DNA of 64,000 nucleotides from the NCBI RefSeq assembly GCF_000334455.1, contig NZ_BANX01000003.1, forward strand, positions 1-64,000, written 5' to 3'. The DNA comes from Gordonia soli NBRC 108243. Its GTDB lineage: Bacteria > Actinomycetota > Actinomycetes > Mycobacteriales > Mycobacteriaceae. Of this stretch, positions 25,535 to 36,719 are shown one piece after another. Made by a program: the position numbers and the translations under genes. The notes beneath the pieces are model-generated. The model saw only the letters and a list, made by a program, of their open reading frames with translations, was not told where the DNA came from and ran no database searches. Position 1 is the stretch's first letter, and every line of letters starts with the position of its first letter.

Positions 25535-26446
25535 ATGACCACGTCGCAGCCGACCGTCCCTGTCCCCGACTCCACCACCTCCGACGTCGCCGTTCTCGGC
25601 CTCGGCGCCATGGGCACGGCTCTGGCCGACGCTCTGCTGGACGCCGGGCGATCGGTGACGGTGTGGAACCGTACGCCGACCAAGACGCAGCCACTCGCCG
25701 CACGAGGGGCAACAGTGGCGCCGACCCCGGCTGACGCGGCCGCGTCTGCACCGGTGGTCATCGCCTGCCTGCTGAACCATCAGAACGTGATGGACGCCCT
25801 TGTCGACGTATCGCAGACGGACCTCTCCCCTGCCGCACAACCGATCCTGGTCGACCTGACCACGACAACACCCGCCGAAGCCCGTCGAACCGCCACCGCG
25901 GCAGCCGAAGCGGGCCGGCGACACCTCGACGGTGCGATCATGGCCATCCCGTCGATGATCGGCCGACCGGAAGCAGCGATCCTCTACAGCGGTGATCCCG
26001 AGGTCTACACCGAGGCCGAGCCGACGCTGCAGATCCTCGGCACGTCACGACATGTCGGCGGCGAACCGGGTCTTGCCTCGATCCGCGACCTCGCACTGCT
26101 CTCCGCGATGTACACGACCTTCGCGGGCTTGCATCAGGCTGTCGCACTGGCGGGTTCGGCCGGCATCACTGCTGCCGACCTGGTGCCGGAGCTCGCCGCC
26201 TTCGTCGGCGCGATGGTGCCGTCCATCCAGAAGGATGTCCCGGCGTTCGACTCCGGCGACCACACGACCGTCGGCCAAGACCTCGTGTTCACCCGCAACG
26301 CCGTCGATCTCATCGTCCGAGCCGCCCGCGAAGAGGGTCGGGAACCGTCCGTGTTGACCGCGGTGCAGAACGTGGTCGCCGGTGAGGTGGAGCGCGGGCA
26401 CGGGCACCTCGACACATCCGCGATGATCGAGGCCTTCCGACGCTGA
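25535..26446 (+). CDS. NAD(P)-binding 6-phosphogluconate dehydrogenase/imine reductase-like protein
   Basis: The 303-residue beta-hydroxyacid dehydrogenase-superfamily enzyme has the Rossmann motif VAVLGLGAMGTALADALL and NADP-preferring WNRTPTK. The C-terminal helical domain (GLASIRDLALLSAMYTTFAGLHQA; DTSAMIEAFRR) is of the imine reductase type. Substrate unknown. It is divergent from the HxlR gene, which suggests stress- or substrate-induced expression. A second, truncated copy of its last 22 codons, differing by silent changes apart from the junction codon, lies 10 kb away at 36499-36568, on the far side of the defence island. Confidence 0.82.
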   Translation: MTTSQPTVPVPDSTTSDVAVLGLGAMGTALADALLDAGRSVTVWNRTPTKTQPLAARGATVAPTPADAAASAPVVIACLLNHQNVMDALVDVSQTDLSPAAQPILVDLTTTTPAEARRTATAAAEAGRRHLDGAIMAIPSMIGRPEAAILYSGDPEVYTEAEPTLQILGTSRHVGGEPGLASIRDLALLSAMYTTFAGLHQAVALAGSAGITAADLVPELAAFVGAMVPSIQKDVPAFDSGDHTTVGQDLVFTRNAVDLIVRAAREEGREPSVLTAVQNVVAGEVERGHGHLDTSAMIEAFRR

Positions 26447-26528
26447 CCGGCGGGAGCGCGGCCGTCGGTGCCCGAGAAAAAACTTCGGCCCCCGATCGAC
26501 ATGCGATCGGGGGCCGAAGTCCTCGTAG
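26376..26528. repeat. Left copy of island-flanking duplication (candidate attL)
   Basis: A 153-bp segment that matches 36498-36648. Its first ~70 bp are the 3' end of the reductase gene, with mostly silent differences between copies. Then comes a diverged spacer of about 28 bp. The last 54 bp (26475-26528) are identical in both copies and hold a terminator hairpin plus CCTCGTAG, whose last three bases are the 3' end of the tRNA gene in the right copy. Confidence 0.85.
26482..26520 (-). terminator. Intrinsic terminator of the defence operon (left copy)
   Basis: A perfect 17-bp stem (arms 26482-26498 and 26504-26520, loop ACATG). On the minus strand it is followed by TTTTTT, so it stops transcripts coming from the island operon. 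It is the duplicate of the initiator-tRNA terminator. Confidence 0.85.
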
Positions 26529-26601
26529 TCCTCGCTGGCGCCAAGGCCAACACCCCAAGATCCAATGGACATCGAGCTGACCAGGCACAATCCAAACAAC
26601 A

Positions 26602-26772
26602 CGTCTCCGATCGCGGGTCACGGAGCAGCTGCGGCGCGACGTCGTTCGGCTGTACGAAGGCGGCATGACGAGTCGCGCGGGTGCCGAGCAAGTCGGACTA
26701 GGGAGAACGACAGTACTGAACGTGCTTAGGCGGGAAGGCGTCGTGATTCGACCGCATGGAGCGAGCTACTAG
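26602..26772 (+). pseudogene. Truncated helix-turn-helix fragment, recombinase-like remnant
   Basis: An open stretch without a start codon, closed upstream by TGA at 26578. It encodes about 56 residues including TEQLRRDVVRLYEGG, AEQVGLGRTTVLNVLRREG and VIRPHGASY, ending at TAG 26770-26772. The pattern is a C-terminal helix-turn-helix like those at the ends of serine recombinases and some transposases. It overlaps the helicase stop by 4 nt on the opposite strand. It is probably the remains of the integrase or resolvase that brought the island; a small unrelated HTH protein is the alternative. Confidence 0.5.
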
Positions 26773-28472
26773 CCGACAAGGGGTGCGGCGCCCTGCGGCC
26801 TGATGATCGCCACTTGGTGTCGTGCACGAGTGATACCTACTCGCAGCAGTCGTCTCGCCGCCGCTCGTTGCGCCTCGGTGTCGGTGTCGCGGAAGAAGCC
26901 CCCCTGGTACTGCCCTTCGACAAGCAGAACGCCATCAAACTCCTTGCCTTTTGCCTTGTGGATAGTCATGAGCACGCAACCGCGTAGGTCGCGCTGGTCG
27001 GACTGAAGCCGACCTGCCTCGAGCGCACGGCGTACCAAGTCGATGGCGCGGCCGTAGCTGCCGCGAAGGTCCCATGCCGACGCAAGTCGGCTTCCGATCT
27101 CATCGGTTGCTCGGAAGAGCCGGACGAACCTGGCGTTGGCCAGCAGATCCGACAAATCGTTCCCAGCTGCCAACAGATCACGCGCGTGTAGCCAGTCCTG
27201 TGCAGGATCACCCTGAAGCACCAGACCGCTGTCGTATGAGGCGGCGAGAGCCTTGGCGCTCGCGAGCCGCTGCGTCTCACCTCTGCGCGCCCGATCTGCA
27301 GCAGTTCGGTACCGCTCGCTGGTCTGACGAGCGGCGTTGCTCGCGTTAGCAGCGTTCTTCGCATCGAAATAATCGGCGATGCGGTCGAAGGTCTGGCCGA
27401 GTGCCACCTCCTTGGGGCAGCCCGGCCATTCGAGAATCGAAGCCACTACCAGGGCAGCCGCTGCCGTGAGGTCGGCGTCCCACAATACGTCGTGCTCGAC
27501 GGGTCTGATCGTCTGGCCGTTGAAATTGTGCTCTTGCGCAAGGATCATCGACAGCTTGCCGACGAGCGCGTTCGTTCTGGCAAGTACGACGACGGAGGGA
27601 TGAGCGATACCCGCCTTGCGGAGCGAGCCGAGCATCCAGACCACACCAGCGTGAACGGTGCTGTCGAAAGCGTTCGCCCAGTATGCGCGCGTGATCACGT
27701 CTTTGGTGTCTGGCAAAGGTCGGTTTATCAGTACGGCGTTGGCGTAATGCAGGATGCCAGCGTTAGGACTTCGATGGTTCTCCCCGCTGAGATCAAACTC
27801 GGCGGGGCCGAGGTGGGCGCGCAGGTGATTAAGGCGCTCCGGATCTACCCTTGAGTCATAGTCGAAGATCCGCTGATCAGGGTCGGCCATAAACACAGTT
27901 TTCGACCGCTCTGAGAGCGTCCGAACAAGCGCCCACTGTGCGTCGTCGGTGTCCTGGAACTCGTCCAGGATGACCACGGGGTACTTATTGGCGAGTAGCG
28001 ATGCAATCGATGCGCTGCCAGCAACGAGTTGGGCGGCAGCGGCTGCGAACTGCCCGAACACGTAGCGGCCTTCCTCCCGTGCCAGGCGTTCGATCTCGGT
28101 GCCCCAGTCTCCTTCGAAGACCGCTTTAGAGAGGTTCTCGTCGCCGGGATAGACGATTCGCGGAGCATGTCCGGTGAGCAGTCGACCATGCGCGCGCAAA
28201 ACCTCCATCGCGAACGCGTGGTAGGTGCGCACCGCGATTTGCCGACGCTCTTCCGAACGCAAAGTATCGCGACACCGGATCTCAACCTGCCGGACGGCAG
28301 CCCGAGAGAAACTGAGGAAGAGGATCTCCTGGCCAGGCTGCAGGACGGGAAGCATCGCTTGGGCTTTCAGAAGCGACAGCGTGGTCTTGCCGGAGCCGGG
28401 GCCGCCGAGTACCAAGACGGGGCAATCGTGGTCCACGGCTCCCTGGGCAGTCTCGGAGAGCTGCAACTCCAC
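26769..28472 (-). CDS. gajB: UvrD/Rep-like helicase, Gabija GajB-type
   Basis: Superfamily 1 helicase of 567 residues. Walker A LVLGGPGSGKTTL (about 21-32), motif II VVILDEFQDTDDAQW (about 166-180), motif IV-type SGENHRS, motif V VLMTIHKAKGKEFDGVLLV and motif VI LLRVGITRARHQVAII are all present. It starts at GTG 28472, 5 nt after the OLD-family gene stop. A UvrD-like helicase directly after an OLD ATPase/TOPRIM gene is the definition of Gabija anti-phage defence, in which GajB is thought to sense or process DNA ends and nucleotide levels. It is somewhat longer than the ~500-residue prototype. It is the last gene of the island operon. Confidence 0.8.
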   Translation of the reverse strand: MELQLSETAQGAVDHDCPVLVLGGPGSGKTTLSLLKAQAMLPVLQPGQEILFLSFSRAAVRQVEIRCRDTLRSEERRQIAVRTYHAFAMEVLRAHGRLLTGHAPRIVYPGDENLSKAVFEGDWGTEIERLAREEGRYVFGQFAAAAAQLVAGSASIASLLANKYPVVILDEFQDTDDAQWALVRTLSERSKTVFMADPDQRIFDYDSRVDPERLNHLRAHLGPAEFDLSGENHRSPNAGILHYANAVLINRPLPDTKDVITRAYWANAFDSTVHAGVVWMLGSLRKAGIAHPSVVVLARTNALVGKLSMILAQEHNFNGQTIRPVEHDVLWDADLTAAAALVVASILEWPGCPKEVALGQTFDRIADYFDAKNAANASNAARQTSERYRTAADRARRGETQRLASAKALAASYDSGLVLQGDPAQDWLHARDLLAAGNDLSDLLANARFVRLFRATDEIGSRLASAWDLRGSYGRAIDLVRRALEAGRLQSDQRDLRGCVLMTIHKAKGKEFDGVLLVEGQYQGGFFRDTDTEAQRAAARRLLRVGITRARHQVAIIRPQGAAPLVG

Positions 28473-28477
28473 GCCAC

Positions 28478-30337
28478 CTACTCCTCGGGCTCTGCAGCAC
28501 CGGCCCCCGGCGCTGCAGTGTCGTCGTCCAGTATCAGTTCAGGCTCGTCCTGGAGCTGTTCGTTGATAGTGAGGAGCGCGTCCCGAATGAAAGCTGGTAG
28601 ATCGGCCTCGGTCTCACACTGCTCGATGAGTGTGCCGGTGTATCCGAAGCCAAACGCATCGCCCTTGCGAGCCTTCAGCACCTTCACTGCCAACTCGGCC
28701 AAGTCGTCATCAGCAACCCGCTCGGCCACGTAGGGATGGCTTGACGGATAGTCGTCGCGCTGCACGACTTCGTCGAGGAAGCTCCGCAACACACGTGTTG
28801 AAACCTGCTTCACCAGGATCTGCTCGATGCCGGTCTCCGGCGACTCCCAGAACTCGTCGAACGACTTGATGTTCTCAGCCGCGTCCGCTGCATCAGGGGC
28901 GTTCAGCTTGTCTCGCATGCCATAGACCCGCTTGCCAAGCGCCTTGAAGATCGGGGCGTACCGCGGCACTTCGCGGTCATTTCCTGCATTGAAGAGGGTG
29001 ACGCCGGTGAGATCAACGTGCGAGTAATCGTCACGGACCTGCTCGAGCGCCGATGAGACGGCGTGCACGGCAACCATCTCCGTCTGACCCTCAAGCACAA
29101 AGACCGCCCGACTCAGGATCGCCTCTGCAAACTGGCGGCGCTGCGTGCGGTATGTCTTAGGCTTGACGCTCGTCGTGTCGATCGGTGCGCCGGAGAATGT
29201 ATTCCCATCGCGCGACAGGATCACTACGTTCTCCGGATCGAACTGCTCGATGACGTAGGGCGAATGGGAGGTGACAATCGACTGTCCCATTTGCTGCACC
29301 ACGTACTTCGTCACGCGCCGCTGGGTGTGAGGAGGAAGGGCGATCTCGGGCTCCTCCATCACGAAGATGACCGACTGGTCTTCCTTGAGGTCCGCGATGA
29401 TCGTCAGCAACGCGAAGACCAGCAGGTTGATCGAGCCAGTGCCCTGCTTGGTGAACGGTACTGAGTGGTTGCTCGGTTGTGTCGCAACGAAGAGTCGGAC
29501 GACTTCACGCAGGTGCTCACGTGTGAGATCTGATGCGAAGAAAGCCGCTGCGTTCTCACTAGGAGCCAGGTTGACAAACTTACCGAGTCGCGTGCGAATG
29601 TTCTCCCGGATGATCCTAAGTTGTTCGATCTCTCCGATGGCCGGATCGAGGTTCTGCAGCGCGCCAAGCGCATCCCGCCACATCTCCTCCGCGCCCTCAC
29701 CGCCTAGCCTGAGTAAGGAGTCGAGCAGCGAACCGCGCTGCAGACTGAGCGCACGAGATCCGGTGCGCAGCGCTCGCAAGAAGATGAAGCCGCAAACCCG
29801 CTTGTGCAAGCGGCTGAACTGCGCGCGGCCCGCGCCAAGTGATGCGCGCTCGTCTTCGTCAAGATCGTCGAGTTCGGGCAGCGGATGATCAAAGAACGTG
29901 TCCCCGATGAAGTCGTCTTCCTCGCGGTCATATCGTCCAATGAAGATCACGGGCAGCGCCCAAACGGTGCCGTCGCCGTCGGCGGATTGGATACTGTCTG
30001 GCTCCTCGTCGATGAACGAAAACGTCTCGTCGTCCCATCGCCGGACGTGCTGGAAGAACCGACGCAACTGTTCGTCCGATAGGTCAGTGAGCACGACGCG
30101 AATACGTATCTCGCGGGGGTCGCCCTCGCCACCAATGTAGTCGCCGTGAGAGAAGTCGTGCTCGTCGATGACGGGGCGACGATAGAGACGTTCTGGCCCC
30201 AATACCAGCTCCAGTGCCTCGCAGACCGTCGACTTCCCGATGTTGTTTCCGCCCACGAGCAGGGTGTGCTGCTGGAACAGCACGTGTCCCGCCACGATTC
30301 CGCGGAAGTTCTCGATTTCGACCTGCCGAACCCTCAT
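28478..30337 (-). CDS. gajA: OLD-family ATPase/TOPRIM nuclease, Gabija GajA-type
   Basis: The 619-residue protein has an N-terminal ABC-like ATPase split around a long insert: Walker A GGNNIGKST (29-37), Walker B SVIFVMEEPEIALP (322-334) and switch His in VTSHSPY (357). A C-terminal TOPRIM-like domain begins RAVFVLEGQTE (Glu 416). The second TOPRIM motif reads VYGMRDKLN (about 471-479), where DxD is expected, so one acidic residue seems missing. Start ATG 30337 (MRVRQVEIENFRG) has AGGGA about 9 nt upstream and matches OLD N-termini; a start at 30454 would overlap hsdR. Class 2 OLD plus helicase equals Gabija. The role is degradation of invading DNA. Confidence 0.8.
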   Translation of the reverse strand: MRVRQVEIENFRGIVAGHVLFQQHTLLVGGNNIGKSTVCEALELVLGPERLYRRPVIDEHDFSHGDYIGGEGDPREIRIRVVLTDLSDEQLRRFFQHVRRWDDETFSFIDEEPDSIQSADGDGTVWALPVIFIGRYDREEDDFIGDTFFDHPLPELDDLDEDERASLGAGRAQFSRLHKRVCGFIFLRALRTGSRALSLQRGSLLDSLLRLGGEGAEEMWRDALGALQNLDPAIGEIEQLRIIRENIRTRLGKFVNLAPSENAAAFFASDLTREHLREVVRLFVATQPSNHSVPFTKQGTGSINLLVFALLTIIADLKEDQSVIFVMEEPEIALPPHTQRRVTKYVVQQMGQSIVTSHSPYVIEQFDPENVVILSRDGNTFSGAPIDTTSVKPKTYRTQRRQFAEAILSRAVFVLEGQTEMVAVHAVSSALEQVRDDYSHVDLTGVTLFNAGNDREVPRYAPIFKALGKRVYGMRDKLNAPDAADAAENIKSFDEFWESPETGIEQILVKQVSTRVLRSFLDEVVQRDDYPSSHPYVAERVADDDLAELAVKVLKARKGDAFGFGYTGTLIEQCETEADLPAFIRDALLTINEQLQDEPELILDDDTAAPGAGAAEPEE

Positions 30338-30413
30338 GCCAGCGCTTCCCTGATCAAGCAGCGTCTCGCGAAAACTCGGCACTTCAATTGCACTTGCTCC
30401 CAGCTGTTTTTCC

Positions 30414-33400
30414 TCACTGGTCGCCTCCAGTGCCCAGCCCGAAGAACCGCTCAAAGAACGCGGCGAGTTTCTGGATCACACGCTGCTTCTTCTCGCCATG
30501 ACCGCCGCCACTCGCGAATCGGGACACAGGAGGCAGCACCTTGGTGATCGCGGTGCCGGTAGTGCGTAGCGCGCCATCGCGGAAGGCCGTCTCGACGAAG
30601 TCGCGCGTGTTGTCGGCACGGAGGTTCTCGTCCTCGATGATCTTGGCCAGCTCAGCTTCGCGCTTGGCCGCGATGAATGCCTGCCACTCTTCGTCGATCG
30701 CTCCGTCGACCGATACCGAGTCGACGAAGTCCTCAATGAGGTCCTTCTTGTTGCGCAGGGTGGGGCTGGCGTCGACCGCGCGAGAGATCTCAGCACGGAT
30801 CTCCTTGTCCTGGCCATCGCCGCCGTGCTCCTCGCGGTACTTGGCGACGAGCATAAGGATGTAGTCGACGTTGATCTCGACTTGCTTGATCAGCTCGACC
30901 TCGAACACCACGTCGTCGTTGATCAGCTCTTTTTCGGCGTCGGTACCTTTGCGGAACTCGGCGTAGAGGTCGAGGTAGACACTGCGGTAGTCCTGCCCCT
31001 GGCGTTGAGTCAGGATCTCGTTGCCGGCGAAGTCGTCAAACGAGGTGAGGATGTTTTCGAGCCGCAGGATCTGCCCGAACAATGCGATGAACTCCTTTTG
31101 CGCATCCTCGCCGACGATCGGCTGTCCAAGCGGAAACGCCGACAGCATCTCGTTCACCTTCTCGGAGTACTCGCTGTAGTACTCCCCGTACGGCTTGAGA
31201 ATGACCACACCGCGTGCGTCCTTGTTGCCGAACAGCTCCAGCGCCTTGTTGGTGGCGTCTTCGAGGTCGCGGAAGGCCACGATGTTGCCGTAGGTCTTCA
31301 CTGAGTTCAGGATGCGGTTGGTGCGGGAGTACGCCTGGATCAAGCCGTGCGCGCGCAGGTTCTTGTCCACGAACAGGGTGTTCAGCGTGGTTGCATCGAA
31401 CCCGGTGAGGAACATATTGACCACGATCACCAGGTCGAGCTCGCGATTCTTCAGCCGCTGTGACAGGTCTTTGTAGTAGTTCTGGAACTTGTCGGCGCTG
31501 GTGTCGTAGCTGGTGCCGAACATCTCGTTGTAGTCGATGATCGCGTCTTCGAGGGCCGAGCGTGCGTCGGTTGGGAGGTCGTCGGTCTCGAAGCCCTCGT
31601 CATCGATGATTCCGCCGTCGACAGCTTCGTTGGCGCCGTAGGAGTAGATGAGCCCAATCTTGAGGCGCTTATCGGCGGCCAGGTTCTCCTGTTCCCACTT
31701 CAACACGTTGTAGTAGATGCGCGCTGCCTGGATCGAAGCAGTAGCGAAAATGGCGTTGAAGCCGCGCACTCGTTTCCGTTCGCGCAGTGCTTCGGCTTGG
31801 CGGCGTGTGCGTGTCGCCTGCGGCACATTGGTCACGACAGAGTGTTCGTAGCTAGATGATCGCTTCGTCTTCTGGTCGAAGTGCTCCAACGTGTACTTGA
31901 CGATCTCACCGATGCGGCGCTCGTCCTGCAGCGCTTTCTCCCGGTCGATCGCCGAGACCTGCTTGTCGTCGGGGTTACCGACCTTGATCGTGTTGATGTA
32001 GTCGATCCGGAACGGCAGCACGTTCTTGTCGGTGATCGCGTCGACGATCGTGTAGGTGTGCAGCTTCTCACCGAAGGCCTGCTCGGTGGTTTTGAACTGC
32101 GGGTTGCCGCCGCTGCCACTGTTCTCGGCGAAGATCGGCGTGCCGGTGAAGCCAAATAGGTTGTAGCGCTTGAAGGCTTTAGTGATGTCGGTGTGCATAT
32201 CACCGAACTGCGAACGGTGACACTCGTCGAAGATGATCACGACGTGCTCGCCTGTGATCGCGTGATTCTTGTTGGCCTTGATGAAGGTCGAAAGCTTCTG
32301 GATCGTGGTGATGATGATCCGGGCGGTTGGGTCTTCGAGTTGCTTCTTCAGGACGCCCGTCGAGGTGTTGGAGTTCGCTGCACCTTTCTGGAAGCGGTCG
32401 TACTCGCGCATCGTCTGATAATCGAGGTCCTTGCGGTCCACGACAAACAACACTTTTTCCACGCTCGGTAGTTTCGAGGCGAGGTGTGCCGTCTTGAACG
32501 ATGTCAGCGTCTTGCCCGAGCCGGTGGTGTGCCACACGTATCCGCCGGCCGCGACGGAGCCAAGCTGCTTGTAGTTCGTGGCGATGTCGATGCGCTGCAA
32601 GATTCGCTCGGTCGCCACAATCTGGTACGGACGCATGACGAGCAACAGCCGATCGGCAGTCAGCACGCAATAGCGGGTCAGGATGTTGAGTAGCGCGTGC
32701 TTGGCAAAAAAAGTCTTCGCAAACGACGTCAGGTCTTGGATCGGTTTGTTCTGCGCATCCGCCCACCAGGAAGTGAACTCGAACGAGTTCGACGTCTTGC
32801 GACCCTTGCTCGGCTTCTGCCCCTCCTTGAGGTGCTGACTACGAGTCGTGTTCGAGTAGTACTTCGTCAGCGTTCCGTTGCTGATGACGAACAGCTGCAC
32901 GTATTCAAACAGCCCAGAGCCCGCCCAGAAGCTATCGCGCTGATAGCGATTGATCTGGTTGAACGCCTCGCGGATGTCGACACCACGCCGCTTGAGCTCG
33001 ATGTGCACCATCGGCAGACCGTTCACCAGGATGGTCACGTCGTAGCGGTTGGCGTAGCGCCCTCCCGCGCTGTCCTCGTCGGCAGGATCGGCTCGGTCAA
33101 CCTCGTACTGGTTGATGACCTGCAGCCGGTTGTTGTGGATGTTCTGCTTGTCCAGGAGCGTGATGTTCTTGGTTGAGCCATCGTCACGCTTGAGGACCTG
33201 GACATGATCCTCCTGGATGCGCACCGTCTTCTCCGCGATGCCGTCGTTCTTCCCGGTGATCTTGTTCTCGAAGAAGTCAGTCCACTCCGCATCCGAAAAC
33301 GTAATCTGGTTCAACGCCCCTAGCTGCGTACGGAGGTTCGCCACCAACTGCGCTTCAGAAGAGATCGCGAGGTACTCGTAGGCTTGCGACTCCAGCAGGT

Positions 33401-33536
33401 TGACTAGCTCACGCTCCAGCGCAGCCTCGGACTGGTACGCAGCCTCCGACGTTGCGTCCGGCACATACTCGGCGACGACCGTACTCTCTGCCGAGACAGC
33501 GATCGGGTCGTACTTGCGTGGCGTCGCCTCACTCAT
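30414..33536 (-). CDS. hsdR: Type I restriction enzyme, endonuclease/translocase subunit HsdR
   Basis: Motor and nuclease of a type I restriction-modification complex. It translocates unmodified DNA and cuts at a distance. The 1040-residue protein has the PD-(D/E)xK nuclease (Asp about 166; IELK with Glu 180 and Lys 182), then SF2 helicase domains: Walker A WHTTGSGKT (about 335-343), DECH box (437-440) and FGFTGTPIF. Its sequence pattern resembles the EcoR124I (type IC) group. ATG 33536 overlaps the hsdS stop as ATGA. It is followed after 76 nt by the Gabija-type gene on the same strand. Confidence 0.93.
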   Translation of the reverse strand: MSEATPRKYDPIAVSAESTVVAEYVPDATSEAAYQSEAALERELVNLLESQAYEYLAISSEAQLVANLRTQLGALNQITFSDAEWTDFFENKITGKNDGIAEKTVRIQEDHVQVLKRDDGSTKNITLLDKQNIHNNRLQVINQYEVDRADPADEDSAGGRYANRYDVTILVNGLPMVHIELKRRGVDIREAFNQINRYQRDSFWAGSGLFEYVQLFVISNGTLTKYYSNTTRSQHLKEGQKPSKGRKTSNSFEFTSWWADAQNKPIQDLTSFAKTFFAKHALLNILTRYCVLTADRLLLVMRPYQIVATERILQRIDIATNYKQLGSVAAGGYVWHTTGSGKTLTSFKTAHLASKLPSVEKVLFVVDRKDLDYQTMREYDRFQKGAANSNTSTGVLKKQLEDPTARIIITTIQKLSTFIKANKNHAITGEHVVIIFDECHRSQFGDMHTDITKAFKRYNLFGFTGTPIFAENSGSGGNPQFKTTEQAFGEKLHTYTIVDAITDKNVLPFRIDYINTIKVGNPDDKQVSAIDREKALQDERRIGEIVKYTLEHFDQKTKRSSSYEHSVVTNVPQATRTRRQAEALRERKRVRGFNAIFATASIQAARIYYNVLKWEQENLAADKRLKIGLIYSYGANEAVDGGIIDDEGFETDDLPTDARSALEDAIIDYNEMFGTSYDTSADKFQNYYKDLSQRLKNRELDLVIVVNMFLTGFDATTLNTLFVDKNLRAHGLIQAYSRTNRILNSVKTYGNIVAFRDLEDATNKALELFGNKDARGVVILKPYGEYYSEYSEKVNEMLSAFPLGQPIVGEDAQKEFIALFGQILRLENILTSFDDFAGNEILTQRQGQDYRSVYLDLYAEFRKGTDAEKELINDDVVFEVELIKQVEINVDYILMLVAKYREEHGGDGQDKEIRAEISRAVDASPTLRNKKDLIEDFVDSVSVDGAIDEEWQAFIAAKREAELAKIIEDENLRADNTRDFVETAFRDGALRTTGTAITKVLPPVSRFASGGGHGEKKQRVIQKLAAFFERFFGLGTGGDQ

Positions 33537-34762
33537 GCTGCGACCGCCTTAAAGGTCAGCAACTTGTCCCGGTAGTACTCGTACTGCTTGCGGCGAGCCG
33601 TCAGCTCAGCGGGAAGTCCAGCGCTGAGATCGTTCACGAGGGAGTTAAACTTATCGAGTGTGGAGACAATCCGACCCTGATCCTCGACACTCGGAACAGG
33701 AATCGAAATCTTAGCTAGGCCGGAAGCAGACAGCCGCTTAACCTTACCTCGCGCGACATGGTTCGCCTTCTGCGAATGGAAGTCACCGGTCTGCACCGCG
33801 TACGCCACATACTTCGGACTCAAATCCGACGTGAACGAGAAGGTATCGTCATGCACGGCGACAGAGCCTTCCCCCAACCACGCAACCGCTTTGCCCACAT
33901 CTTCAACCGTCTCGCCGACGCCCGCGAAAATCACGTCGCGAGGCTTGGCGAATCGCAATTGAGGGGACAGCTCAGATCTGACTTCTCGCACCGCCTCCGA
34001 TGCTGACACACCGTAGTGGGTGTAGATCTCGCCATAATGAATACTGGGTATGCCAGACTCGACGACGTCATTCTTTGTGAATCGACGTCCACGGACGAAC
34101 GTTCCAAGTTCACCCATTTGGACCTTAGGCCCGTCCGCGGCTGCCACGAGCGAATCCCGATAGAAGGCGTACTGGCGGCGGCGAGCTTCCAGCTCTGCCT
34201 CCAGCTCTGCCTCCAGCTCTGCCTCCAGCTCCGTGAACTGATCTAATGTCCGCACAATCTCCCGCTGGACTTCGATAGGCGGTACGGGAATTCGATAGGA
34301 CCTGACACGGTGATCGGTGATCGAGGGGTAGTTTCCTTCAACCTGGTTCGCTTCAACGTATCGCCGGAAGACATCTGCGCCAAGGATATGAGCTAGGAAA
34401 TTCGTGAGGACGATAGAGGTATCCGGCCGCAGCACACAGTAGCCTGTGCTTGCGATCTGCCCGTCATACTCAGCAGGGATCACCGCCCATCGCATTTGCG
34501 CGGGGCGTGTGGTTGCGAAAATCACATCCCCCGTGTGCAAAATCTGCTGTGCGCGACTTGGAGCGTTACTTGAAGTGATGGATACCGTCTCACCGATCCT
34601 GCGCGTCACGCGGTCCACGGAACTTAGATCGATATACCGGAACTCGTCGTCACCCGCGTTGGCCCATTTGATATTGGAGCTTTTCGCAGCGACTTCGCCC
34701 ACTGACTTAAATTCGACGCCCTCAGGTGCTAGCTCCGCGATCAGTTCATCGAGTCGACTCAC
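33533..34762 (-). CDS. hsdS: Type I restriction enzyme specificity subunit HsdS
   Basis: DNA-recognition subunit that sets the methylation and restriction site. The 409-residue protein has two target recognition domains (about 15-170 and 225-370), each followed by a conserved helix (REIVRTLDQFTELEA...RRRQYAFYRD and GRIVSTLDKFNSLV...ARKQYEYYRD). The central spacer helix holds four ELEA units encoded by a 12-bp tandem repeat. In EcoR124I the number of such repeats (TAEL) sets the spacer length of the recognised sequence. GTG 34762 overlaps the hsdM stop as GTGA. The recognition sequence cannot be read from the protein. Confidence 0.92.
   Translation of the reverse strand: MSRLDELIAELAPEGVEFKSVGEVAAKSSNIKWANAGDDEFRYIDLSSVDRVTRRIGETVSITSSNAPSRAQQILHTGDVIFATTRPAQMRWAVIPAEYDGQIASTGYCVLRPDTSIVLTNFLAHILGADVFRRYVEANQVEGNYPSITDHRVRSYRIPVPPIEVQREIVRTLDQFTELEAELEAELEAELEARRRQYAFYRDSLVAAADGPKVQMGELGTFVRGRRFTKNDVVESGIPSIHYGEIYTHYGVSASEAVREVRSELSPQLRFAKPRDVIFAGVGETVEDVGKAVAWLGEGSVAVHDDTFSFTSDLSPKYVAYAVQTGDFHSQKANHVARGKVKRLSASGLAKISIPVPSVEDQGRIVSTLDKFNSLVNDLSAGLPAELTARRKQYEYYRDKLLTFKAVAA
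34184..34231 (-). repeat. 12-bp tandem repeat in hsdS (ELEA x4)
   Basis: Three exact units of GAGCTGGAGGCA (minus strand) plus a fourth with two changed bases encode ELEA-ELEA-ELEA-ELEA between the two target-recognition domains. Slippage by one unit keeps the frame and would change the spacer helix by four residues. Confidence 0.9.
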
Positions 34763-36324
34763 TTCGCGCTCTCCAGGTCAGCAACGATCTCATCGATCGA
34801 TGCGCGAAGCTCCGCCTGACGGGCGACGATGCGGGCGATATCAGCGTTGAGGGCAGTGATGTCTACGACCTCACGAGTGTCTTTGGCTTCGACGTACGAC
34901 GGTATGGCGATGTTGTAGCCATTTGCCGCGATATCTTCGTTCGAGATGAGTTTCGTGAAATGGGCGACATTGGCCCGATTCTCGAAAGCACCGAGAATGG
35001 TCTGCGCGTGGTCGGGAGTGAGCTTGTTTTTGTTACCGATGCGCTTGAACTCTGCCGATGCATCGACGAACAGCACACTATTGTCCTTCTTAGACTTCTT
35101 CAGCACGATGATGCATGTCGCAATCGTGGTGCCGTAGAACAGATCTGGCGGCAGCTGTATAACGGCGTCGACGTAGTTGTTGTCGATCAGGTACTTCCGG
35201 ATCTTCGCCTCCGCGCCCCCGCGGTAGAGCACACCTGGGAACTCAACGATCGCCGCCGTGCCGTTGACTGCTAGCCACGACAGGATGTGCATGGTGAAGG
35301 CCAAGTCGGCCTTGGATTTCGGCGCGAGTACGCCTGCAGCAGCGAATCGTTCGTCGTTGATCAGGAGCGGGTTGGCGTCGCCTTCCCATTTGATCGAGTA
35401 GGGCGGATTGGAGACGATCGCCTCGAATGGTTCGTCGTCCCAGTGTGCGGGATCGGTCAGTGTGTCACCGTGGGCAATGTCGAACTTCTCGTAGTTCACA
35501 TCATGTAGGAACATGTTGATGCGAGCGAGGTTGTAGGTGGTCAGGTTGATTTCCTGGCCGTAGAAGCCGCCCACGTTCTCTTTGCCGAGCACCTTGGCGA
35601 ACTTGAGCAGGAGCGATCCGGAGCCGGCTGCCGGGTCATACACCCGGTTAACCCGCTTCTTACCCGCGACGGTGATTTTTGCCAGCACCTCGGAGACTTC
35701 TTGCGGCGTGTAATACTCACCACCCGACTTGCCAGCCTGGGAGGCGTACATCTGCATGAGATACTCGTAGGCATCGCCGAAAAGGTCGATCGAGTTGTCT
35801 TCGAAGTTTCCGAGCGGAAGGTCCCCGATTGCGTTGAGCAACTTGACTAGCTTCTCGTTGCGTTTGGCGACGGTGTTGCCGAGCTTAGAGCTATTGACGT
35901 CGAGGTCGTCGAACAGGCCCTTGAGGTCGTCCTCGCTGTCGGTGCCAACCGCCGAACCTTCGATGTTTTTGAATACCCGCTCAAGGGTCTCGTTTAGGTT
36001 GACATCTCGCGCCGCGCGTTCCCGGACGTTCTGGAAAAGCTCAGACGGCAGGATGTAAAAGCCTTTTTCGTCGACAGTATCTTTGCGTCCGAACTCAGCA
36101 TTCTCGTCGTCGAGTTTCGGATAGTCGAAATCCGCGTCTCCGGCTTCGTGTTCCAATCCATTTAAATAGGCGGTGAGATTCTCGGAGATGAATCGATAGA
36201 ACAGCATGCCGAGCACGTAACTTTTGAAGTCCCAGCCGTCCACACTTCCACGGAGATCATTAGCAATGCGCCAAATGGTCTTGTGTAGTTGATCACGCTG
36301 TTCCTGTGACGTCTTCGGTGACAT
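34759..36324 (-). CDS. hsdM: Type I restriction enzyme methyltransferase subunit HsdM
   Basis: Adenine-N6 methyltransferase subunit of the type I system. The 521-residue protein has an N-terminal helical HsdM domain (QLHKTIWRIANDLRGSVDGWDFKSYVLGM), SAM-binding motif I VYDPAAGSGSLLL (about 228-240) and catalytic motif IV NPPYS (about 306-310). ATG 36324 has a GGAAGG Shine-Dalgarno 5 nt upstream. It is the first gene of the island operon hsdM-hsdS-hsdR-gajA-gajB. A consensus TTGACA -35 box (36364-36369, minus strand) lies about 40 bp upstream, though no good -10 follows it at 17 bp. Confidence 0.95.
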   Translation of the reverse strand: MSPKTSQEQRDQLHKTIWRIANDLRGSVDGWDFKSYVLGMLFYRFISENLTAYLNGLEHEAGDADFDYPKLDDENAEFGRKDTVDEKGFYILPSELFQNVRERAARDVNLNETLERVFKNIEGSAVGTDSEDDLKGLFDDLDVNSSKLGNTVAKRNEKLVKLLNAIGDLPLGNFEDNSIDLFGDAYEYLMQMYASQAGKSGGEYYTPQEVSEVLAKITVAGKKRVNRVYDPAAGSGSLLLKFAKVLGKENVGGFYGQEINLTTYNLARINMFLHDVNYEKFDIAHGDTLTDPAHWDDEPFEAIVSNPPYSIKWEGDANPLLINDERFAAAGVLAPKSKADLAFTMHILSWLAVNGTAAIVEFPGVLYRGGAEAKIRKYLIDNNYVDAVIQLPPDLFYGTTIATCIIVLKKSKKDNSVLFVDASAEFKRIGNKNKLTPDHAQTILGAFENRANVAHFTKLISNEDIAANGYNIAIPSYVEAKDTREVVDITALNADIARIVARQAELRASIDEIVADLESAK

Positions 36325-36497
36325 ACGTGCCTTCCCCCGCAGCTCTCGGCTACTCAATGTCTGTGTCAAGATCACCCAGTCCGACCGCGGACACACTTGA
36401 GCCGTCGGAGCCATCGCGATCAGCATGCCAAACGGATCGGACGGTTCGGGCTCGACGCGCGGTAACAAGAACCCGAAACGACACTTGCACCACCAAA
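36325..36497. other. Right-end island DNA and hsdM promoter region
   Basis: About 170 bp without a gene between hsdM and the right flanking repeat. The only signal I see is TTGACA on the minus strand at 36364-36369. No integrase, excisionase or RNA gene is visible. Confidence 0.4.
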
Positions 36498-36648
36498 TCG
36501 CCGGTGAGGTGGAGCGCGGGCACGGACACCTCGACACATCCGCGATGATCGAGGCGTTTCGGCGCTGACCGTCGAACGCGCACCTGTCGGTGACAGAAAA
36601 AACTTCGGCCCCCGATCGACATGCGATCGGGGGCCGAAGTCCTCGTAG
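36498..36648. repeat. Right copy of island-flanking duplication (candidate attR)
   Basis: Matches 26376-26528. It encodes the last ~22 codons of the reductase (IAGEVERGHGHL... MIEAFRR stop) with synonymous changes such as GGA/GGG, GCG/GCC, TTT/TTC and CGG/CGA. A diverged spacer follows, then the identical 54-bp core (36595-36648) reaching the last three bases of the initiator tRNA gene. Confidence 0.85.
36602..36640 (-). terminator. Intrinsic terminator of the initiator tRNA gene (right copy)
   Basis: The same 17-bp stem as at 26482-26520, followed on the minus strand by TTTTTT. It lies 5 nt after the tRNA 3' end, so it ends the tRNA transcript. Confidence 0.85.
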
Positions 36649-36719
36649 CGGGGACAGGATTTGAACCTGCGACCTCTGGGTTATGAGCCCAGCGAGCTAC
36701 CGAGCTGCTCCACCCCGCG
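36646..36719 (-). tRNA. Initiator tRNA-fMet (CAT)
   Basis: The cloverleaf is complete: acceptor CGCGGGG with CCCCGCT, D-arm GAGC/GCTC, anticodon stem CTGGG-CTCATAA-CCCAG, T-arm GCAGGTTCAAATCCTGT. Initiator marks are visible: a mismatched C1-U72 pair, three consecutive G-C pairs in the anticodon stem, and an A11-U24 pair. CCA is not encoded. The gene is transcribed towards the defence island. Confidence 0.95.

Follow-up and report, generated by a model that had tools for sequence, protein, structure and literature searches.

How the Gabija defence system tells foreign from own DNA is called unknown in the abstract of PMC12407980; the system is proposed to act on linear DNA that is not occupied by RecBCD. 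Its GajB subunit senses DNA termini, according to the accessible passages of PMC10681800 and PMC11514479, which cite Cheng 2023. In a search that covered titles and the beginnings of abstracts, with supplements and most subscription papers outside its scope, we found no published report of Gabija joined to restriction-modification (R-M) genes in one operon. A likely arrangement of this kind is present in Gordonia soli NBRC 108243, in the stretch of 64,000 nucleotides analysed here (positions 1 to 64,000 of contig NZ_BANX01000003.1, hereafter the window). There, an insertion of 10,120 bp (26475 to 36594) carries the type I R-M genes hsdM, hsdS and hsdR followed by gajA and gajB. In near relatives, this gajAB pair repeatedly follows R-M genes of other kinds, which hints at cooperation between restriction and Gabija.

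The five genes lie on the minus strand, with the overlaps and gaps already given in a preliminary description of this DNA. The methyltransferase gene hsdM (34759 to 36324; type I N6-adenine methyltransferase, 521 residues) overlaps by 4 nt with hsdS (33533 to 34762; specificity subunit, 409 residues), which in turn overlaps by 4 nt with hsdR (30414 to 33536; restriction/translocase subunit with an EcoR124-type C-terminus, 1040 residues). A gap of 76 nt (30338 to 30413) leads to gajA (28478 to 30337; OLD-type ATPase with a TOPRIM domain, 619 residues), and 5 nt separate the latter from gajB (26769 to 28472; UvrD-like superfamily 1 helicase, 567 residues). A TTG codon at 30454 is a possible alternative start for gajA; in 24 of 24 aligned relatives, whose starts had been set at the tblastn match, the protein begins at the Met that matches the ATG at 30337. 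The gap between hsdR and gajA holds no promoter- or terminator-like site in a consensus scan and folds no better than shuffled sequence (z 0.41), and a transcription break at this place was rejected on these grounds, as anticipated. Across the region the scan returned two promoter-like sites, both on the plus strand, and neither promoter-like nor terminator-like sites exceeded chance expectation; its promoter consensus was that of sigma-70, which may not suit this host. It also missed a strong hairpin terminator on the minus strand after gajB (26482 to 26520; 17-bp stem and U run, -41.1 kcal/mol, z -7.3), probably because G-T pairs lengthen the stem into the T run. With this terminator at its end, the layout agrees with the single operon proposed earlier, and hsdM-hsdS-hsdR-gajA-gajB is probably made as one transcript. 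The lower GC (guanine-cytosine) content of the island also holds: 55.5% for hsdM, 56.7% for hsdS, 59.0% for hsdR, 60.4% for gajA and 62.4% for gajB, compared with a fraction of 0.63-0.67 directly beside the island and 0.67-0.73 in most other 2-kb windows.

Profile searches confirmed the assignment of both gene sets. The type I R-M system is complete, and its three proteins have the expected domains: HsdM matches Pfam N6_Mtase (373 bits) and HsdM_N as well as the NCBIfam hsdM equivalog (713 bits), HsdS matches Pfam Methylase_S in two stretches and PADLOC Specificity_I, and HsdR matches Pfam HSDR_N, SWI2_SNF2, T1R_D3-like and EcoR124_C together with PADLOC REase_I (1138 bits). We take this EcoR124-like system to be of the kind labelled type IC. 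The hsdS gene of EcoR124 contains spacer repeats that code for a repeated four-residue unit. In the hsdS gene of the window, 12-bp tandem repeats (34185 to 34231, minus strand) encode a repeated E-L-E-A between the two recognition domains, and their number may set the spacing of the recognition site.

As for the other two genes, GajA matches PADLOC PDLC00086 with 788 bits and Pfam AAA_15 and OLD-like_TOPRIM, and GajB, encoded 5 nt downstream, matches PADLOC PDLC00104 with 655 bits and Pfam UvrD-helicase. In hhalign comparisons, GajA aligned with four GajA-like plasmid proteins with a probability of 98.9, and GajB with the partners of those four proteins with 99.5. The solved GajA is distant by sequence (phmmer E 3.3e-6; profile E 1.2e-15); nevertheless, the best matches of a GajA-profile search of the PDB were GajA chains. 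The PADLOC and hhalign results place the pair inside Gabija, and the possibility that it falls outside this group was ruled out. A natural fusion exists on a Robbsia andropogonis plasmid, where gajA and gajB are annotated as a single frame of 1192 residues (L079:9001-12579).

The TOPRIM site of this subtype is altered. For class 2 OLD nucleases, two Glu, the DxD motif, a Thr and a further Glu are termed absolutely conserved, in addition to a catalytic Lys, in the accessible part of PMC6755086. In the window's GajA the second Asp of DxD is missing, and it is absent from all 24 aligned sequences of the subtype, being Leu in the window and Pro, Gln, Phe or Leu in relatives; in contrast, a T-D-N-D motif is invariant in the four GajA-like plasmid proteins. 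The position of the Thr is taken by Gly503. Both Glu residues, Asp476, Glu505 and Lys558 are retained, and Glu416, Glu420, Gly445, Asp476, Glu505 and Lys558 are invariant across the 24 sequences; the profile match stops at residue 477, and later positions were assigned by motif. The strict class 2 active site is thus not preserved. BpOLD tolerated single changes at these positions, as the same portion of PMC6755086 relates, and loss of activity therefore does not follow from the altered site.

To see what precedes gajA elsewhere, we compared 47 gajAB loci, counting that of the window, of which 45 have at least 3 kb of upstream DNA. In 8 of the 45, or 7 of 44 without the window, the genes that run into gajA on the same strand include R-M genes or a remnant of one, and these are of different types. 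The window has type I hsdMSR. A Nesterenkonia locus (L012) has a type IIG enzyme, with a helicase and a T5orf172-domain protein between it and gajA. In Gulosibacter (L013), Arachnia (L014) and genome G1066 (L073), type III mod-res genes are followed by dolA-dolB and then gajA, and in Novosphingobium (L019) mod-res lies 26 nt from gajA; the type III genes form different sets in L013/L073, in L014 and in L019. In genome G1112 (L097) an HsdR gene lies 15 nt from gajA, and the 4.7 kb between the start of the contig and this gene contain neither hsdM nor hsdS. Finally, in Specibacter (L015) a C-terminal HsdR remnant of about 50 codons lies 4 nt from gajA; it shares 51% identity over 45 residues with the HsdR of L097, and two tRNA-Ala genes adjoin it. 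Two borderline loci were not counted as R-M: L009, where a protein with an HSDR_N domain is encoded 261 nt ahead of gajA, and L072, where a gene 291 nt ahead encodes a large helicase that matches a methyltransferase weakly.

Of the nine loci that are closest in GajA (identity of 77% or more; the window, L011 to L015, L023, L024 and L073), six have an R-M front. This set is an identity group; in the tree eight of the nine form a supported set (100/94), with L015 just outside. The remaining three are L023 and L024, in which dolA-dolB precedes gajA and no R-M gene was recognised, and L011, in which nothing was recognised before gajA. Mapped onto a tree with 46 GajA rows, the R-M label requires four changes (gains or losses), at least three of them forced by supported branches, and 3 of 500 label shuffles gave a number as low as four; L015 was scored in this test as lacking R-M, since its remnant was sighted later. 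The presence of different R-M families in the same position argues for several separate joinings. R-M genes in front with Gabija behind them are thus a recurring arrangement in which the R-M parts are interchangeable, and the idea of a one-off junction was ruled out by the relatives in which R-M genes of another type occupy this position.

The dolA-dolB genes deserve mention in their own right. L013, L014, L073, L023 and L024 share a dolA-dolB-gajA-gajB array of four genes with a 4-nt overlap between dolB and gajA, with or without type III R-M genes ahead of it. The res, dolA and dolB genes of L073 and L013 are 95-97% alike and their mod genes only 60%, as if the recognition part of mod had been swapped between the two arrays. 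In the window, no match to dolA or dolB was found between 18001 and 46000, and a dolB remnant in the 76-nt gap was ruled out, the similarity amounting to no more than a few bases. Another composite array is that of L097 (652-7933), in which CBASS-family phospholipase and E1-E2 genes, the lone HsdR gene and gajAB stand together.

This GajA family is present in 2 of 396 genomes of the phylum and 1 of 59 of the genus, and in 3 of 249, 5 of 249, 5 of 151 and 4 of 221 genomes in four other families; these counts include the genome under study or the centre genome, and several of them repeat loci already found. Further matches came from 16 plasmid records (three of which, H4, H15 and H16, were not fetched), 15 genome-collection loci and 9 viral-contig loci, and no match was found in phage records at E 1e-10. 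An HsdR like that of the window is encoded in 11 of the 396 phylum genomes, the window's own included. None of 11 relatives (10 in phylum genomes and one in genome G452) has gajAB beside hsdR in the fetched DNA, which extends at least about 2 kb downstream (L045 being the shortest), ruling out an anciently fixed hsdR-gajAB unit. The exact hsdR-gajA pair is rare; the joining of R-M genes to gajAB recurs with types IIG and III and with other HsdR proteins.

The island has the marks of an insertion. Its left direct repeat (26376 to 26528, 153 bp) consists of the terminal 71 bp of a neighbouring plus-strand gene (25535 to 26446), which we take to encode a 6-phosphogluconate-dehydrogenase-like protein, and of the terminator. 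The right direct repeat (36498 to 36648) is 151 bp long, and its final 54 bp are identical to the left copy. The limits 26475 and 36594 were set at the start of this exact 54-bp repeat at either end, and the coordinates therefore enclose the entire insertion. As the gene-end parts of the two copies differ by four synonymous and no non-synonymous changes over 23 codons, both were, this suggests, once functional gene ends. These features fit integration at the end of the gene by an element carrying its own copy of that end. A tRNA-Met (CAT) gene found by ARAGORN (36645 to 36719, minus strand) adjoins the right end of the island, and its region was matched in 59 of 59 genomes of the genus, the genome under study included. 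The hairpin terminator next to it (36602 to 36640, minus strand; -39.6 kcal/mol, z -7.5) is the likely source of the duplicated hairpin. Because genus relatives carry hairpins of different sequence at the same place beside the tRNA (by eye, in part of the loci that match a 19-base tRNA string exactly), the right copy probably represents the terminator of the tRNA itself, and its left duplicate now probably terminates the operon.

With regard to mobility, the direct repeats at a tRNA and gene end are those of an integrative element, and the only recombinase trace in the island is a resolvase-type helix-turn-helix remnant of 58 codons (26596 to 26772, plus strand, convergent with gajB; Pfam HTH_7, E 8.5e-5, just below the curated cut-off). 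No Pfam Phage_integrase match, the tyrosine type, was found on the window's contig (C58); the matches in this genome lie on C22, C34, C41 and C42, and the genome-wide search did not extend to serine recombinases. Two Actinomyces loci (L016 and L025) have, by eye, a resolvase-HTH-like frame just upstream of gajA that recalls the remnant of the window. An empty site was not seen in relatives, the 829 bp to the left of the island having no DNA match in the 58 other genomes of the genus. Genes for tRNA-Ala(GGC) lie near the islands of two relatives (L015:9686-9835 and L024:7502-7575), and this gajAB subtype may often be inserted next to tRNA genes.

The surroundings of gajAB are rich in defence genes on both sides, with recognised R-M operons mostly on the 5' side; this comparison of sides was not blind, the R-M queries being derived from the upstream matches themselves. 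Neighbouring open reading frames of at least 200 residues within 5 kb were considered; 7 of 121 downstream and 9 of 137 upstream, all from viral-contig loci, were left out for size, and of the upstream ones 20 were covered in separate scans and the other 108 with PADLOC. DISARM, CBASS, other defence genes and one type II methyltransferase are among the families listed for the 114 downstream frames, and Dodola, RmrA, Septu-type and AbiE-type genes among those for the 108 upstream ones; these are the best 25 of 84 families downstream and 25 of 45 upstream, and more R-M families may exist. In three near relatives, a related protein is encoded after gajB (L013:13631-14452, L015:13732-14445 and L073 12460-13227, the last turned to the strand of gajA), for which we found no Pfam match with the L013 and L015 copies and no PADLOC match with the L013 copy.

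Taken together, we favour, tentatively and with somewhat less than even confidence, the view that the island arrived by insertion as a defence cassette whose type I R-M and Gabija genes are probably expressed from one transcript, Gabija serving as a second line behind restriction on the DNA ends that restriction makes. HsdMSR would make the self/non-self decision through methylation and cut unmethylated DNA. GajB would then meet the free ends left by HsdR, and GajA and GajB together would block the rejoining or copying of cut or incoming linear DNA. Host DNA would be spared mainly because methylation keeps it uncut and because host repair enzymes occupy host ends, so that GajA would not need to read methylation directly. 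It is tempting to extend this view to a composite defence in which interchangeable R-M fronts of types I, IIG and III single out foreign DNA and, by cutting, pass it on to one Gabija subtype whose TOPRIM site is altered, restriction supplying the self/non-self decision that Gabija lacks. We regard this wider proposal as doubtful.

Several observations weigh against a second-line role. In 37 of the 45 loci no R-M gene was recognised before gajA, and this Gabija therefore does not need R-M. The exact hsdMSR-gajAB pairing is unique among the loci searched, being present in none of the 44 others with enough upstream DNA. Other defence genes lie near gajB too (DISARM, CBASS and the type II methyltransferase), as in any defence island, and co-transcription is no proof of co-working. 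From the literature, RecBCD loading protects ends from Gabija in the account available from PMC12407980, and restriction ends in a RecBCD-proficient host might thus be protected as well. The nucleotide-depletion model of Gabija is disputed in that same portion of the source, and the purified complex showed no DNA binding or unwinding, as far as the accessible text of PMC10681800 goes.

Nearly as likely as the favoured second-line role is plain co-inheritance, in which one promoter and one mobile island serve two independent systems, with packing and common regulation being favoured and the proteins having no effect on one another. We consider it possible, if on balance unlikely. The loci without a recognised R-M gene speak for it, as do the many unrelated defence genes on both sides of gajAB, the insertion with direct repeats at a tRNA, and the differences in GC content among the genes of the island, which fit an assembly from parts. 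However, several R-M types in the same 5' place, the short gaps and the proportion of R-M fronts among the nearest relatives seem to be more than scattered neighbours would suggest. A guard or backup function is a more improbable explanation: by analogy with PARIS, GajAB might be kept beside R-M genes since phages that block restriction or RecBCD-type enzymes would trigger Gabija. We know of no anti-restriction trigger of Gabija, and none was searched for, which counts against such a function. In its favour, BREX loci often carry OLD-type effectors that are read as backups, and PARIS is described as detecting Ocr, in the part of PMC12839542 that is available; moreover, phage proteins that exclude RecBCD license Gabija, as the accessible text of PMC12407980 has it. 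Least likely, and by our estimate very improbable, is the suggestion of the preliminary description, by which type I methylation would act directly, either shielding host DNA from GajA or licensing the nuclease. The common operon of hsdM, hsdS and gajA speaks for it, and other partners also bring methyltransferases. Yet the partner methyltransferases (types I, IIG and III) differ in how they recognise DNA, and no single methyl mark can therefore be required. Furthermore, the HsdR of L097 lacks hsdM and hsdS before it, although its contig ends there, and most gajAB loci have no R-M partner.

A Gabija group that is repeatedly joined to differing R-M types offers a direct test of whether restriction cutting switches on or aims Gabija. 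If it does, defence surveys would be listing parts of a single machine as separate systems, and the altered TOPRIM site would offer a naturally occurring variant for study.

In comparison with known systems, the window resembles EcoR124-like type I R-M in its hsdM, hsdS and hsdR genes with an EcoR124_C domain, and its 12-bp hsdS repeats coding for a four-residue unit are a further likeness to EcoR124; it differs in that hsdR precedes gajAB, as it does in none of the 11 hsdR relatives in fetched DNA. With Gabija of the Bacillus cereus VD045 type it shares an OLD ATPase-TOPRIM gene followed by a UvrD-like helicase gene, whereas its pair is distant, has Leu for the second Asp of DxD and is joined to R-M genes. 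Like BREX with OLD/TOPRIM backup effectors, as portrayed in the available part of PMC12839542, it combines a methylation-based system and an OLD-type ATPase-nuclease in one operon; unlike the PglZ systems, it has ordinary R-M enzymes and a GajA-GajB pair. The arrays of type III R-M, Dodola and Gabija in L013, L014 and L073 have the same gajAB subtype (GajA 84-92% identical) on the 3' side of their R-M genes, but they carry mod-res instead of hsdMSR, and dolA-dolB between the R-M genes and gajA.

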